From Candidatus Nanoarchaeia archaeon (GTDB lineage Archaea > Nanobdellota > Nanobdellia > SCGC-AAA011-G17 > JAFCDX01), in contig JAQUOT010000002.1 of NCBI GenBank assembly GCA_028716945.1, positions 124,001-188,000 on the forward strand: a stretch of 64,000 bases of DNA, in the 5' to 3' direction. The notes under the pieces were generated by a model, which saw only the letters and a program-made list of their open reading frames with translations, ran no database searches and was not told the DNA's origin. Position numbers and translations under genes: made by a program. Shown one piece after another: positions 14,126 to 60,172 of the stretch (positions within the stretch are counted from its first letter, which is position 1; the number at the start of each line of letters is the position of its first letter).

Positions 14126-14208
14126 AAATTTAATTATTAAAGTATATTCTATAAAATATATATTCTAACAAATTGCAACTTGCAAGATGTGCGCGCCAGA
14201 TTTATAAA
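14126..14208 (+). promoter_or_regulatory. Element shared by both LAGLIDADG genes (copy 1)
   Basis: 35 nt at 14152-14186 are identical to the complement of 60217-60251, including TTGCAACTTGCAAG. The next 22 nt (TGTGCGCGCCAGATTTATAAA region) differ by one indel and one substitution. Weaker similarity extends to 14126. TTTATAAA (14201-14208) is the TATA box and lies 22-29 nt before the ATG at 14230, so the message is leaderless. Two TTGCAA palindromes sit just upstream and look like an operator. Confidence 0.75.
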
Positions 14209-14229
14209 GCAAATTTACTAAATATTATT

Positions 14230-15246
14230 ATGGGAATCAGAGAAAGAGTAGTTTTTCCTAAAGGTAAACAAAAGCAATTTTTAGATTATATTTATAAGTT
14301 ATCTAATCTGCCTTGGAAAGAGTTAGGGTTGAAATTAGACGTAAATTCAGGAACTTTATTTCATACTTATAAATTTGAACAATCCAATATACCCTATAGT
14401 TTGTTTTTAAAAATATGTGAAACATTTAATTTAGACTCTAATGAAATTTTAAAACAAAATGATGCTAAAATTAGTAATGAAGACAGATCTTACCCAAGAA
14501 AAACGTTTGGAGAAACCAGGAAAAAATTAAGAGAAATAAATATAACTTTTATTAACAAAAATAATATTTTAAACAATGAGGGAATAATCTTTTCTAAGAA
14601 AGATGAAGAAAGAAAAATTAAATTACCTAATAAAATTACTCCAGAACTAGCAGAAGAAGTTGGAATGCATTTAGGAGATGGTTTTTTGTCTGGAAGAAAG
14701 ACTGAATATAGATTAAAAGGCAATAAAGATGAAAAAGATTATTATGATACTTTCATTAAAGGGTTGTATAAAAGCTTATTTAATATAAATTTAAATATAA
14801 AAGAATATGAAGATACTTATGGCTTTGAAATGTATTCTAAAGCAATTCACACATTTAAATCAAAAGTTTTGGGTTTACCTATTGGAAGAAAAATAAATGT
14901 TAAAATTCCAGATATCTTTAAAATAAATGATATAACCATATTAACTTCTTTATTAAGGGGACTTTATGATACAGATGGTTGTATTACTTTTATGTCTCAT
15001 TATAACCATAAAAAGTATTATCCACATATTACTTTTGCTCAAAAATCAGATTTTTTAATAAAAGATATTTATAATATATTGAAAATGTTAGGATTTAATC
15101 CTTGTTATTTCAAGGGGGAAGGCTATTCTAGTCTTAGTTTATATGGTTATAATTCCTTAAAAAGATACATGGATTTAATAGGATTTCACAATCCAAAACA
15201 TTTAAGAAAAGTAAATAACTGGAAATTATTATATCCAAAACTATGA
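14230..15246 (+). CDS. Free-standing LAGLIDADG homing endonuclease
   Basis: 338 residues from the ATG at 14230; the in-frame start at 14173 lies upstream of the TATA box and is rejected. The N-terminal third contains an HTH-like unit ('WKELGLKLDVNSGTLF'). Two LAGLIDADG helices follow: 'AEEVGMHLGDGFL' and 'LLRGLYDTDGC', each with the catalytic aspartate. The C-terminal 'YMDLIGFHNPKHLRK' resembles the end of the second endonuclease at 59495. It is not inside an intron or intein. Its TGA (15244-15246) overlaps the first bases of tRNA-His. Confidence 0.88.
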   Translation: MGIRERVVFPKGKQKQFLDYIYKLSNLPWKELGLKLDVNSGTLFHTYKFEQSNIPYSLFLKICETFNLDSNEILKQNDAKISNEDRSYPRKTFGETRKKLREINITFINKNNILNNEGIIFSKKDEERKIKLPNKITPELAEEVGMHLGDGFLSGRKTEYRLKGNKDEKDYYDTFIKGLYKSLFNINLNIKEYEDTYGFEMYSKAIHTFKSKVLGLPIGRKINVKIPDIFKINDITILTSLLRGLYDTDGCITFMSHYNHKKYYPHITFAQKSDFLIKDIYNILKMLGFNPCYFKGEGYSSLSLYGYNSLKRYMDLIGFHNPKHLRKVNNWKLLYPKL

Positions 15247-19072: not shown

Positions 19073-21993
19073 TGTGCATAGGATTTTTGGAAAAAAATGT
19101 TAGTAACCGCAGGCTGAACATCTCGTTACCTTGATGCTTACACCTCGATCCTATCAAGCTCATCTTCTATGAGCATTTTATGTGTGTCTCTTTTCGCGGA
19201 GGGCTTCGAACTTAGATGCTTTCAGTTCTTATCCCAAGGGGCGTAGCTGCTCTGCCTACCTTATCAGATAACAGATACACCAGAGGCCCCAGACCACCGT
19301 TCCTCTCGTACTAAATGATCTTTCCACTCAGACACGAACACCTCCACTAGATATCGAACATACTGTTTCGCAACGTATTGAACCCAGCTCACGAGCCTTT
19401 TTAATGGGTGAACACCCCCACCCTTGGCTGCTTCTGCACAGCCAGGATAAGGCGAGCCGACATCGTCGTAGCAAACCGCGCCGTCGATATGAGCTCTCAG
19501 GCGCGACAACTCAGTTATCCCCGGAGTAGCTTTTCTATTAGCCCTAGCTCCCATAAACGAAGCATAGGGGTTCACTAAACCAAAGTTTCCTTCCTGCACC
19601 CTTTATTGTTCAGAGTACAGTTAAGCCAGCTTTTGCATTTACACTCTACTTTGGATTTCTAAACCAAATGAGCTGACCTTTGGGTGCTCTTGATACCGTT
19701 TCAAGAGCATGCCGCCCCAGCCAAACTATCCATCAGCTACTGTCCTTCCTTTCAGAAGTTAGCAATATAAAATTTTAAGAGTGGTGTCTCATATTTCGCC
19801 TATACTCAAACTAGCGTCTGAGTCTTAGCAGCTACCACCTACACTGCACATAAAATTTCACACTACAATAACAGACTATAGTGAAGCTTCACGGGGTCTT
19901 TGCTTCCCACTGGAGGTCTCAGGACTTTGCACCTGAATATAGTGTTCGGGGGATTCGAGTTAGGGACAGTGACAATCTCGTTACGCCATTCATGCAAGTC
20001 GTCATTGAAACGACAAGGTATTACGCTACCTTAAGAGAATTATAGTTATTCCCGCCGTTTACGAGTCCTTAGTTTCCTTGAAAGGAATGTTCGGATACTC
20101 GCACTGGGCAGACTTCACCTTCCATACTAATCTTTACAGAGTAGCGGAAAGCTATGTTTTTGTTAAACAGTCGGACTACCCTTGTTATTGCATCCTGTAA
20201 TTGCATTCGTATGAAAACAATCGCAGGAATCCCTTATACCGAAGGCATGGGACTAATTTGCCGAGTTCCCTTAACTCAAGTTTTCCCTCATATCTTAGGT
20301 TTCTCACCTAGGGTACCTGTGCTGGTTCTGGGTATGATTATCTAAGATCCTTTTAATTTCCTTTTCATGGACTCTAGAAATTAACCAAATGAACAAATGT
20401 CCACTCGTCTCAAATTTAATTGCATTCTCATCATTACGATACTCCTGCAATTTATTTTGATTGACATTTCAGATTAAAAATGTTGGTCTATCCCAAAGTG
20501 TCAAAAATTAAAATTTCGTTGCCGAATGTACTTAGATAGTAAAGGAATTTTAACCTTTTTCCCTTTTTCACTATTCAAATTATGTAGTGATTAGGATCAA
20601 CTAACTCTCAGCTGAACTGCATTGCTGAGAAACCCTTACCCTTACGATACCAATGATTCTAACATTGTGTTGCTCCGTACTACCGCCAGGATTCGCAATT
20701 TTACTTGGTCCATATTTTCTTACGAAAATACTTCTACCCAAGAAAAACGCCTGTCTACCAATATCTTTTCAGATTTCAACAGTATCGGTAATCAATTTAG
20801 CCCCGTCCATTTTCAGGGCACACTATCTTGAAAGGTGAGCTATTACGCTTTCTTTAAAGGATGGCTGCTTCTAAGCCTACCTCCCTTCTGTCTGAGATAG
20901 TATACACCTTTCACCCGTTAACACTTAATTGATATTTTGGGACCTTAACTGTTGGCTTGGGTTGTTCCCCTGTTGGATTGCGAGCTTACCCCACAACCCC
21001 GTTTCCCAACTTCTACAGAACTTAAACGTTCTTAGTTTGACAAGAGGCCGACTAGTTTCCTAGCCAAAACCTCAAATCAGGATCTTTACCATTTAAGCTT
21101 CCTCTGTTGAGACTTGACTCAGATCAAATTCGACAGGAACCAGCTATTACCGGTCTCGATTGGCATTTCACTCCTAATCCAGAGTCAGAAGAACGCTTTC
21201 TCACAGAACCTCTTCAGGCCTCCATTTCCTTTTACAGAAACTTCACCTTGCCCTGGATTAGATCGATCGGTTTCGGGTCATACCTAAGTAACTTAAAGCA
21301 TTTTCATACTTTTCCCCTCGTGAACTGCGGGATCTCGCTTTCGCTTCGGTTTCTTTTTTCAAATTAACCTTGCTACTTAAGTAAACTCCCTGGCCCGTTA
21401 TTCGAAACGTACGATGCAACTCCTAAGAGCAGCATCATGCTATAACTATTAGGTTTCAGATTCTTTTCACTCTCTATTACGAGTTCTTTTCAACGTTCCC
21501 TCACGGTACTATTCGCTATCGGTCTCAAAGCAATATTTAGAGTTGGAAGTAAATGTCTCCCAAATTCAGGCCTAAATTCCGATAGACCTTACTCAAGATA
21601 CTCACACATCTTTCTGATTAAATACTACGGGACTATCACCCTTTACAGTGTTTCTTTCCAGAAAACTTTGTATTATCAGTTAAGACTAAAAGTGAGTCTT
21701 CAACACCACATCTCCTTGCTGTTTCCAGTAGGATTCAGTTTGCTCTCTGCTGTTTTCTCTCGCTGATACTAACAGCATCTCGAATTGATTTCTTTTCCTG
21801 CGGATACTAAGACGCTTCAATTCTCCGCGTAACCTATCATTTCTGATTTCTCCGAAGAGATAGAATCTAATTAGGAAATCTCTAGTTCTAAGACTGCATG
21901 CGTCTCCCTAGAGCATATCGTAGCTTGCCACGTCCTTCTTCGAGCTTTGAACCTAGTCTTCCACCTAATAGTGTATTCCAAATCCTATGCACA
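19073..21993 (-). rRNA. rrl: 23S ribosomal RNA
   Basis: About 2,920 nt on the minus strand. The terminal helix is visible: 5' TGCATAGGATTTGG pairs with 3' CCAAAAATCCTATGCA. Conserved blocks include the peptidyl-transferase region and sarcin-ricin-type AGTACGAGAGGAACG (complement near 19305). No insertion large enough to be an intron is evident from the total length. Ends are approximate. It follows tRNA-Ala in the same transcript. No 5S gene lies downstream. Confidence 0.96.
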
Positions 21994-22064: not shown

Positions 22065-22200
22065 TGGACCCGTCGGGATTTTCAAAGTTATTCAGTTTCT
22101 GAAAAAACTATTTCGAACCCGAGACCCCCTCCTTTCTTTGATAAAGTTTTTATCAAGTTTTATATGCAAGGGAGGTATTCTACCGCTGAACTACAGGCCC
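22065..22200 (-). tRNA. tRNA-Ala(TGC) with two introns (anticodon loop and T-loop)
   Basis: Acceptor GGGCCTG pairs with CGGGTCC and has the alanine identity pair G3-U70, with A73. D-arm GTTC/GAAT. Anticodon stem CCTCC/GGAGG and loop CTTGCA, interrupted after position 37 by a 31-nt intron (22134-22164). T-stem TCGGG/CCCGA; the loop begins TTCGAA and is interrupted by about 33 nt (22079-22111) before T60. Removing both gives a standard 72-nt tRNA. The T-loop intron folds into a hairpin (AGTT..TTCAG AAA CTGAA.AACT). It lies in the 16S-23S spacer. Confidence 0.9.
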
Positions 22201-22264: not shown

Positions 22265-23733
22265 TAGGAGGTGATCCATCTGCAGGTTCCCCTACAGATA
22301 CCTTGTGACGACTTAACCCTTCTTATTGAATCCAAATTTGTTCTATTCTAAAAAACAGACCTCATTTGAACCCTACTCGAATGGTTTGACGGGCGGTGAG
22401 TGCAAGGCTCAGGGACATATTCACCGTTCAATAGTGATGAACGATTACTAGGAATTCCGTTGTCACGAGCATGAGTTTCAATGCTCGATCTAGACTAAGA
22501 TAGGGTTTTGAGGATTAACTTCTCCTCTCGGAGTTGTGACCCATTGTCCCTACCATTGTTGCGCGCGTGTAGCCCAAGATATTCAGATCATACGGACCTA
22601 TCGTTGCCCACGCCTTCCTCCTGTTTTCACAGGCAGTCCATATATTGTGCTCATTCTTCATTACTGAAACGTTAGCAAATATACATGTGGGTCTTGCTCG
22701 TTGCCAGACTTAACTGGACACCTTACGGCACGAGCTGACGACGGCCATGCAATACCTCTCGGCTTGTTAGGTAAAACCTTTAATCTGACCTTCATTCTGC
22801 CGTCGATCTTGGTAAGATTTCCGGGGTGGAATCCAATTGAACCGCACACTCCACTCCTTGTGTGAGCCCCCGCCTATTCCTTTAAGTTTCAGCCTTGCGA
22901 CCGTAATTCCCAGGTAGCGAGCTTAACGTCTTCACTTAGGCACTGCACATTCTCTAGGAATATGCAACACATAGCTCGCAGCGTTTACGGCTAGGACTAC
23001 GCGGGTATCTAATCCGCTTTGCGCCCCTAGCTTTCATTCCTCATTGTCAGAACCGTTCTGGACAAGCGCCTTCGCCACTGGAAGTCTTTCAAGGATTATA
23101 ACATTTTACCGCTCCCCCTGAAATACTCTTGTCCCCTCCCGGTCTCGAGCTTGTTAGTATCTCTTGCACGCTGTTGAATTAAGTCCAACAATTTCACAAA
23201 AGACTTGACAAACCAACTACGAATGCTTTAGACCCAATAATAGTGAACGCCACTCGTGGACGCTGGTGTTACCGCGGCGGCTGGCACCAGTCTTGCCCAC
23301 CACTTATTCTCCAAGCTTTTTACACTTGGCAAAAGCCTATCCAATGGATAAGCACTTGGGATTCCCTTATCACGCTTTCGCGCATTGTAAAGTTTTCGCG
23401 CCTGCTGCACCCCTTAGGGCTAGGGTCAGTATCTCAGTACCCTTCTCGGGGCTACCCCTCTCAGGGCCCCTACTGATCTTTGGTTTGGTGAGCCTTTACT
23501 TCACCAACAGCCTAATCAGCCGCCAACTCATCCTTAAGCGTTACCTTTCAAAGAAAAAACATTCCAGTATCTTTCTTTTATCCAGTTTTAGTCTCAGTTT
23601 CCCAAGGTTATCCTAGACTTAAGGTTAGATTATCGACGTGTTACTGAGCCTTATGCCGGTGTATTGCTACCCCTGACTTGCATGGCTTAATCGAATCCCA
23701 ATAGCAGCATTCTCCTGCAGGATCAACAGGAAT
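22265..23733 (-). rRNA. rrs: 16S ribosomal RNA
   Basis: About 1,470 nt on the minus strand. 5' end ATTCCTGTTGATCCTGCAGG (archaeal start); 3' end GGATCACCTCCTA, whose anti-SD matches the GGAGG and GGTGA sites seen upstream of operon genes here. The length leaves no room for an intron. Promoter near 23904-23916. First gene of the 16S-tRNA-Ala-23S transcript. Confidence 0.97.
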
Positions 23734-41842: not shown

Positions 41843-42655
41843 ATGAGAGGTAAAATTTTCTTTAATCATAAAAATTTGAAGATAATTAAAGATGATGTTC
41901 TGCTTACTGATGAAATTTCTAACGACAGTATTGATTTAATTGTTACATCTCCTCCTTATAATATAGATATAAAATATAATTCACATGATGATCAAATAAC
42001 TTATGAAAAATATTTAGAATTTAGTTACAAATGGTTATCTAGGTGTTTTGACTGGTTAAAGGATGATGGAAGATTATGTCTTAATATCCCTTTAGATAAG
42101 AATAAAGGAGGTCAACAAAGTGTTGGTGCAGATTTAACAACAATAGCCAAAAAAATTGGATTCAAATATCATTCTACTATTATTTGGAATGAGGGAAATA
42201 TTTCACGAAGAACTGCTTGGGGTTCTTGGCTTAGTGCTTCTGCTCCTTATGTAATTGCTCCAGTAGAATTAATTCTTGTTTTGTATAAAAAAGACTGGAA
42301 AAAAAATAATAAAAAACAATCAGATATAACAAAAACAGAATTTATAGAATGGACTAATGGATTGTGGACCTTTCACGGTCAAAGCAAAAAAGGGGCAGGT
42401 GGTCATCCTGCACCATTCCCTATCGAATTGCCTAAAAGATGTATCAAACTATTCAGTTATGTTGATGATGTTGTTTTAGATCCTTTTATGGGTAGTGGCT
42501 CAACAATGATAGCGGCAATACTAAACAATAGAACTTCTGTAGGTATTGAAATTGATGATGAATATTGTGATATAGCAAAGAAAAGAATTATAGAAGAGGC
42601 AAAACTTTTAAATAAGAAATTACCTGCGAGAGCAGTAAAGATGAAGGTATGTTGA
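41843..42655 (+). CDS. Type II DNA methyltransferase (N4/N6 amino-methyltransferase)
   Basis: 270 residues. 'VTSPPYNIDI' (catalytic SPPY, 36-39) precedes 'VLDPFMGSGSTMIAA' (SAM-binding, about 220-232), the beta-class order. SPPY is often seen in cytosine-N4 enzymes, while D/N-PPY is typical of N6-adenine enzymes. It is followed after one base by an HNH nuclease gene, so the two form a restriction-modification pair. Confidence 0.9.
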   Translation: MRGKIFFNHKNLKIIKDDVLLTDEISNDSIDLIVTSPPYNIDIKYNSHDDQITYEKYLEFSYKWLSRCFDWLKDDGRLCLNIPLDKNKGGQQSVGADLTTIAKKIGFKYHSTIIWNEGNISRRTAWGSWLSASAPYVIAPVELILVLYKKDWKKNNKKQSDITKTEFIEWTNGLWTFHGQSKKGAGGHPAPFPIELPKRCIKLFSYVDDVVLDPFMGSGSTMIAAILNNRTSVGIEIDDEYCDIAKKRIIEEAKLLNKKLPARAVKMKVC

Positions 42656-42656
42656 A

Positions 42657-43250
42657 ATGACAAAAAATTTAGAAGAAATGAGCCAAGCAGATTTAATTAT
42701 GGAATATTTTAAGAAAAATTCAAAAAGAGAAATTAAACATCCGGAGATAGTTGATTGGGCTGTTGCTGAATGGAAAAAACGAACAGGTGAAGTCTTTAGA
42801 GATCCAGATAGAGCAATAAGAAAACTTTCTCAAGGAGGACAATTAATAAAAATTTCTAAAGGTATTTACAAATACGATCCAGATTTTGTAAAAAACAGAG
42901 AATTAGAGGACTTTACTTCTTCTCAGAAAGAAGAAATTTTCAAAAGAGATAATTACAAATGTGTAATTTGTGGGAGAGGCAGAGCAGATGGAGTTGAAAT
43001 TCAAGCAGATCATATCAAACCAAAAGAATTAGGAGGAAAAGCAGAAATTGAAAATGGACAAACTTTATGTGCTCAACATAATTTTCAAAAGAAGTCTTAT
43101 AAACAAACTGAAACAGGAAAAAGAATGTTTATACGACTTTATGAATTAGCAAAGAAAAATAATGATAAAGAATTAATGAAATTTTGTGAAGATATTTTAA
43201 AAGTTTATGAGAAAGACAATATTAATGGACACATAATTTGGAAAAAATAA
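42657..43250 (+). CDS. HNH restriction endonuclease
   Basis: 197 residues. A winged-helix-like N-terminal domain (about 8-80) is followed by an HNH domain: 'CVICGRG', 'IQADHIKPKELGGK', 'ENGQTLCAQHNFQKK' (two zinc CxxC-like sites and DH...H). Starts one base after the methylase stop. Recognition site cannot be read from sequence. Confidence 0.85.
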   Translation: MTKNLEEMSQADLIMEYFKKNSKREIKHPEIVDWAVAEWKKRTGEVFRDPDRAIRKLSQGGQLIKISKGIYKYDPDFVKNRELEDFTSSQKEEIFKRDNYKCVICGRGRADGVEIQADHIKPKELGGKAEIENGQTLCAQHNFQKKSYKQTETGKRMFIRLYELAKKNNDKELMKFCEDILKVYEKDNINGHIIWKK

Positions 43251-57736: not shown

Positions 57737-57756
57737 TTTGATTTCCTTTTAGTATA

Positions 57757-57846
57757 CGGGCCGGGGGGGATTTGAACCCTCGACCACTTGCTTTCTATGA
57801 TGTGATCTTAAAAGGCAAGTGCTCTACCAAGCTGAGCTACCGGCCC
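57757..57846 (-). tRNA. tRNA-Lys(TTT) with 16-nt intron
   Basis: Acceptor GGGCCGG/CCGGCCC, G73, D-stem GCTC/GAGC, anticodon stem CTTGC/GCAAG, loop CTTTTA then a 16-nt intron (57793-57808, after position 37) and A38; T-arm GAGGG TTCAAAT CCCCC (one G-C order variation). TATA (57871-57878) 25-32 nt upstream. No CCA encoded. Confidence 0.92.
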
Positions 57847-57870
57847 ATTGCATAGCACTAGCTGATAGTT

Positions 57871-59494: not shown

Positions 59495-60172
59495 TTATTG
59501 TTTTAATAATTTTACTCTTTCTAAATAATGGGTATGGGGAGTATAATAACCAAGTTTATTCCAAATAGCAATCTTTGTTAGGTGTTTTGGATTAGAAAAC
59601 CCAATAAATTTCATCCATTTTTTTAGATTATGTCTACCATATATATCAATTTGATATTGAATAAAAGTTTTATTACCTAAAGTTGTTAATTTTGTGTAAA
59701 TATTTGCTTTTATATTAAATAACTTTAAAAGATTTTTAAGTTCTTCAGTAAAATTTTTATTTGAAAAACTTGAAGTAATAAAAGGATAATTATGCTTTTT
59801 CTTTGTGAATGATATACTAAAATCAGTATCTGCAATCCCCCTTATAAAATTAGCTATGAGTTTTTTGTTCTTTTTTGCAAAAGTTGGAATTCCCATTGTT
59901 TTTGGTCCAGAAACTAATCCAAGAGATATTAATTTTTCTATTACACTTTTTGAACAAACAGAAAGAGCTATCGCATTTTTATTCTTATGTTTCCAAATTG
60001 ATGCTTCTTTATTAAATAAAGTTTTAATTAAAGGTTTAACATAATTTATTAAATAATCATAATCTTCTTCAGAATGGCCAGTGACTACAAACCTATAAGT
60101 TCCACTTTTACTATAGATATTTCCATCGCCCAACATAATACCAATAAATTCAGCTAATTTTTTCTTATCCAT
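59495..60172 (-). CDS. Free-standing LAGLIDADG homing endonuclease
   Basis: 225 residues. Motif 1 'LAEFIGIMLGDGNIYS' and motif 2 'LIANFIRGIADTDFSI', each with catalytic D. Ends with 'KKWMKFIGFSNPKHLTK', like the endonuclease at 14230. Lacks the N-terminal HTH extension of that protein. Leaderless from the shared element (TATA 60194-60201). Not within an intron or intein. Followed after 32 nt by tRNA-Asp. Confidence 0.9.
   Translation of the reverse strand: MDKKKLAEFIGIMLGDGNIYSKSGTYRFVVTGHSEEDYDYLINYVKPLIKTLFNKEASIWKHKNKNAIALSVCSKSVIEKLISLGLVSGPKTMGIPTFAKKNKKLIANFIRGIADTDFSISFTKKKHNYPFITSSFSNKNFTEELKNLLKLFNIKANIYTKLTTLGNKTFIQYQIDIYGRHNLKKWMKFIGFSNPKHLTKIAIWNKLGYYTPHTHYLERVKLLKQ

Follow-up and report, generated by a model that had tools for sequence, protein, structure and literature searches.

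A tRNA-Ala(UGC) gene with a predicted T-loop intron in the rRNA operon of a probable woesearchaeote

The non-canonical positions at which BHB introns interrupt archaeal tRNA genes include 53/54, 56/57 and 59/60 (PMC4090602). Such introns are known mainly from Crenarchaeota and a few other groups, and those of the T-loop have been described mainly in Thermoproteales and a few further groups; an earlier note on the DNA studied here assigned T-loop introns mainly to a few crenarchaeal groups. The tRNA genes of Thermoproteales such as Pyrobaculum carry many introns, with several per gene and similar sequences across isotypes (PMC8450103, PMC4090602). The Thermoproteales EndA is an (alpha beta)2 enzyme of broad specificity. 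Introns at non-canonical positions have been linked to broad-specificity endonucleases, and alpha4 and alpha2 EndA have been described as restricted to canonical BHB motifs (PMC4033280, PMC6379350). There is thus precedent for introns at 59/60, for BHB splicing and for tRNAs with several introns (PMC4090602, PMC8450103).

The gene reported here resembles the described non-canonical introns (PMC4090602) in its 59/60 position, its BHB sites and its second intron at 37/38. It differs in that it is an rRNA-operon tRNA of a lineage that we infer to be Woesearchaeota, and in that the T-loop introns are found lineage-wide. Like the Thermoproteales genes it belongs to a set with many introns, several per gene and similar across isotypes; in contrast to Thermoproteales, we found one EndA subunit, which lacks the crenarchaeal loop.

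The spacer tRNA-Ala gene and its two inserts

The window, which is the whole 64,000-nt stretch of DNA analyzed, contains an rRNA operon on the minus strand, with the RNase P RNA beyond it. The host genome comprises 804 kb on two contigs and is rated 97.6% complete. The tRNA gene lies between the 16S and 23S rRNA genes and is composed as follows.

22266-23733, minus strand: 16S rRNA, upstream of tRNA-Ala in the same operon
22065-22200, minus strand: two-intron tRNA-Ala(UGC) gene, in the spacer between 16S and 23S rRNA
22165-22200, minus strand: exon 1, positions 1-37 (acceptor 5′ strand with G3, D arm, anticodon stem 5′ strand, anticodon TGC, A37)
22134-22164, minus strand: intron 1, 31 nt, at the canonical position 37/38; relaxed BHB with 3 of 4 central pairs
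22112-22133, minus strand: exon 2, position 38 to A59 (anticodon stem 3′ strand, variable loop, T stem 5′ strand TCGGG, TTCGAA)
22114-22117, minus strand: T54-G57 (TTCG), the exon side of the central BHB helix
22111-22113, minus strand: 5′ bulge AA/A, with the 5′ splice site predicted after A59 from the geometry
22079-22111, minus strand: intron 2, 33 nt, at T-loop position 59/60; the predicted ends follow the BHB rule and the intronless relatives
22081-22084, minus strand: TGAA, the intron side of the central BHB helix, conserved and covarying at position 57
22078-22080, minus strand: 3′ bulge AA/T, with the 3′ splice site predicted before T60 from the geometry
22065-22078, minus strand: exon 3 (T60, T stem 3′ strand CCCGA, acceptor 3′ strand CGGGTCC with U70 of G3-U70, A73); CCA is not encoded
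19081-21987, minus strand: 23S rRNA, downstream of tRNA-Ala in the same operon

Removal of both inserts in silico yields a 72-nt tRNA-Ala(UGC) in which all four stems are paired and the anticodon is UGC. The earlier note had proposed a spacer tRNA-Ala with a 31-nt insert at 37/38 and about 33 nt inside the T-loop, paired arms and the alanine identity pair G3-U70. This reading stood up to in-silico removal and to comparison with relatives: the first insert occupies 22134-22164, the second is exactly 33 nt (22079-22111, at 59/60), and the spliced product retains both the pairing and G3-U70. ARAGORN calls tRNA-Ala(tgc) only after the double removal. Taking out either insert singly is insufficient, and with the T-loop intron alone removed the gene is typed as Ser. 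The unspliced gene was missed by ARAGORN, run on the whole window, and by Rfam RF00005 at its gathering score; RF00005 matched a partial stretch with just 21.5 bits. A covariance model that allows the T-loop intron, a search the earlier note had suggested, scored the gene at 79.9 bits in the host genome, where the next tRNA scored 50.3. Neither this model nor RF00005 found a second tRNA-Ala in the genome, although at 97.6% completeness a second copy, or an EndA subunit, may have been missed, and the tRNA inventory comes from targeted searches and selected stretches and is not exhaustive.

The T-loop insert has the geometry of an archaeal splice site. T54, T55, C56 and G57 pair with TGAA near its 3′ end, giving all four central pairs, and the flanking bulges are 3 nt each (AAA on the 5′ strand and AAT on the 3′ strand, before the T stem). 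The site thus has the strict hBHBh′ form (3-nt bulge, 4-bp helix, 3-nt bulge). When the insert was shuffled, the 4-bp central helix with 3+3-nt bulges arose in 1.6% of cases, and in 0.4% it was accompanied by four or more of the six inner-stem pairs. As a single sequence is weak evidence, conservation across relatives settled the matter. Among 70 distinct tRNA-Ala T-arms with inserts, 265 of 280 central-helix cells are paired (95%), compared to 21-64% in a control in which the partner was displaced by 1-4 nt. All four pairs and 3+3 bulges are present in 59 of the 70. Position 57 and its intron partner form A-U in 42 of these T-arms, G-C in 14 and G-U in 3. In a 32-sequence alignment the whole structure exceeded 500 of 500 shuffles in both covariation score and cells paired. 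Insert length ranges from 12 to 41 nt in the tRNA-Ala set and the inner sequence is free to vary. In intronless relatives the T-loop is mostly TTCGAAT or TTCAAAT, the predicted splice product, and these relatives agree with the BHB cut rule in placing the insertion between A59 and T60. Given the geometry, the conserved pairs, the covariation at position 57 and the predicted product in intronless relatives, the insert is to be read as a genuine BHB intron, for which EndA is the most likely nuclease and RtcB the most likely ligase.

The folding of both junctions, also suggested in the earlier note, gave a strict motif for the T-loop and a relaxed one at 37/38. The central helix of the latter, with three of four pairs in the window, is perfect in 10 of the 28 members of the set.

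In combination, the sequence comparisons point to a functional rRNA-operon tRNA-Ala(UGC) gene carrying two protein-spliced archaeal BHB introns, with a probability of about 0.93. In the proposed precursor, the T stem would stack on the 4-bp helix formed by T54-G57 and intron UGAA, with 3-nt bulges on either side. EndA would cleave 3′ to the second nucleotide of each bulge, whereupon RtcB would ligate A59 to T60, producing an ordinary T-loop, TTCGAAT. The 31-nt intron at 37/38 would be excised by the same route. Cleavage and ligation in the cell, and the order of these events, are what we infer.

T-loop introns in relatives and in other tRNAs

When GTDB species were scanned with a T-loop pattern specific to tRNA-Ala, 71 stretches matched. 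In 60 of them there is a tRNA-like T-arm, and nearly all of these are titled Woesearchaeota, Nanoarchaeota or “archaeon”. The remaining 11 (10 bacterial and one from a halophilic archaeon) are without tRNA context and were taken as chance matches. Within the phylum, 48 of 371 genomes have the tRNA-Ala pattern and none has the reversed pattern. The spacer tRNA-Ala has a T-loop intron in 23 of the 42 genomes of the order with a readable spacer tRNA and lacks it in the other 19. All three typed genomes of the window's family have the intron in the same tRNA. Two genomes (G053 and G084) matched the 16S query but had an unreadable spacer tRNA, and were left untyped. The claim of the earlier note that a T-loop intron is unusual in this archaeon therefore does not hold, as the intron is common in its family and order and, across many isotypes, in its phylum. 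It stands out only when set beside the published record. On a 16S tree, where the branch of one row (G023) is very long, intron presence switches state at least 7-9 times. It has thus been gained or lost repeatedly, though it is clustered within families.

When the strict T-loop BHB pattern was sought in any tRNA, candidates turned up in 187 of the phylum's 370 genomes, compared to 6 for the reversed control, and the pattern was nearly absent from two large families (f60 and f28). At 155 distinct strict places, ARAGORN recognized a tRNA in 5 without splicing, in 143 after exact removal and in 42 after a shifted cut of equal length. The isotypes involved include Ala (TGC, CGC and GGC), Lys, Asp, Ser, Leu, Ile, Cys, His, Thr, Glu, Arg, Gly and Trp, as assigned by ARAGORN after removal of the T-loop intron only, which makes them approximate and unreliable where another intron persists. 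The T-loop intron of the window belongs to a widespread and spreading set of 59/60 introns in Woesearchaeota-type archaea.

Adjacent tRNA-Asp(GTC) and tRNA-Lys(TTT) genes have near-identical T-loop introns, with two mismatches at one locus (L256) and none at another (L260). At a third such pair (L264) the introns are identical or similar. These pairs suggest recent intron copying between isotypes. Moreover, an identical 35-nt intron core occurs at three tRNA loci (L300, L301 and L312) in two genomes. Near-identical introns in different tRNA genes imply that introns move between genes or are copied by gene conversion.

Inspected by eye, many other tRNA genes of the host (loci L025, L026, L030, L231, L233, L234 and L235) have apparent D-loop introns, often with an intron in the anticodon region as well. 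Another T-loop insert, TTCA...TGAA, interrupts the tRNA-Leu(TAA) gene of the host (L027, G000:C1:71214-71295 and slightly further); its 3′ bulge is 5 nt and the BHB hence relaxed. At L232 (G000:C1:427050-427350, minus strand) a tRNA resembling Arg(TCT) is represented by its 3′ part, with no obvious 5′ half in the upstream stretch; the gene either has a long D-loop intron or is split. In the window, a tRNA-Lys(TTT) with a short anticodon-loop intron lies at 57756-57847 (minus strand), and the ARAGORN run on the window leaves its type unassigned. The window also has ORFs with LAGLIDADG-type homing endonuclease domains (14173-15246, plus strand, and 59495-60172, minus strand) and a DNA methyltransferase-like ORF, judged from its sequence, followed by an HNH nuclease ORF (41843-43250, plus strand). 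The latter two are possibly a restriction-modification pair.

Other readings of the spacer gene can be weighed. If the T-loop insert were retained, the mature tRNA would have an extended T arm, and RNAfold does find the unspliced gene stable, with the T stem running on into the insert hairpin (z = -2.5). However, that continuing helix occupies T54-G57, which are needed for the tRNA elbow. The bulges stay fixed at 3+3 nt while the insert varies in sequence and length, relatives have precise empty sites, and removal restores a recognizable tRNA at nearly all of the strict places, so we give retention very little credence. The poor and partial score with the standard tRNA model would suit a decaying pseudogene, with another tRNA-Ala serving the cell, and the earlier note had named another intact copy as the sign of this. 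No such copy was found with either model, all the stems and G3-U70 are retained, and family-mates keep the gene with intact exons and divergent introns, which brings the chance of a pseudogene close to negligible. We thus rejected both readings on the basis of the pairing, the covariation, the empty sites and the lack of a detected second tRNA-Ala.

A further reading links the intron to processing of the rRNA operon and gives it a regulatory role that only the spacer tRNA would have. The tRNA-Ala matches are mostly in the 16S-23S spacer and, according to one report, the splicing endonuclease of other archaea also acts in pre-rRNA maturation (PMC7714728). However, nearly half of the spacers of the order are intronless, and tRNAs encoded outside the spacer, such as Ala(CGC), Ala(GGC), Lys and Asp, carry the same type of intron. 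The latter leaves a spacer-specific role unsupported, and we consider it highly unlikely. The preferred reading remains that of two BHB introns removed by protein splicing, one of which belongs to the 59/60 set.

The splicing endonuclease and ligase

The genome has one EndA gene, which encodes a protein of about 194 aa with both Pfam domains and an intact Y/H/K triad. The closest solved structure is 3iey_A, followed by the EndA of M. jannaschii. We take 3iey_A, with its partner chain NEQ261, to be the catalytic EndA subunit of N. equitans. Nanoarchaeum equitans is a member of the same broad DPANN branch as the host. It shares with the host this likeness of the catalytic subunit, but its tRNAs include split ones and its beta subunit is a protein of its own, whereas a beta-subunit profile search of the host genome recovers just the alpha gene. 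The A. pernix EndA loop is absent, and the Y/H/K triad intact, in all 30 EndA proteins of the order, including that of the window's genome. As a single short subunit with the triad, without the crenarchaeal loop and with no beta subunit found, the EndA fits the alpha4 (M. jannaschii) type. As no second subunit was found, it may act as a homotetramer. Two points speak against the splicing reading: the imperfect central helix at 37/38, and the published link of non-canonical positions to broad-specificity enzymes (PMC4033280), given the one alpha-type subunit of this genome. An alpha-type EndA should nevertheless accept the T-loop intron, whose motif is mostly strict even though its position is non-canonical. 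RtcB, the expected ligase for these introns, is encoded in the genome (L230:806-3211, G000:C1) and is interrupted by an intein, which bears a LAGLIDADG domain.

Implications for Woesearchaeota-type archaea

Searches of the open-access literature turned up no description of T-loop introns from Woesearchaeota. Relative to that literature, what seems to be new is the expansion of T-loop introns in archaea for which a single, loop-less EndA subunit was found. We put it at slightly better than an even chance that there is a large, undescribed expansion of mobile 59/60 BHB introns in Woesearchaeota-type archaea, covering most isotypes, including the rRNA-operon tRNA-Ala, and served by a homomeric, loop-less EndA.

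The lineage puts to the test the accepted link between non-canonical positions and broad-specificity endonucleases. If this expansion is real, the rule that a non-canonical position needs a broad-specificity EndA would become one in which any position is permitted, given a strict BHB. Because introns have come and gone naturally many times at a single site, and near-identical ones occur across tRNAs, the spread of archaeal tRNA introns becomes testable in this lineage. As standard gene finders miss these genes, the tRNA sets of Woesearchaeota may look incomplete when they are complete. Finally, with an intron in the rRNA operon, tRNA splicing, and hence formation and modification of the T-loop, would become part of rRNA-operon processing.
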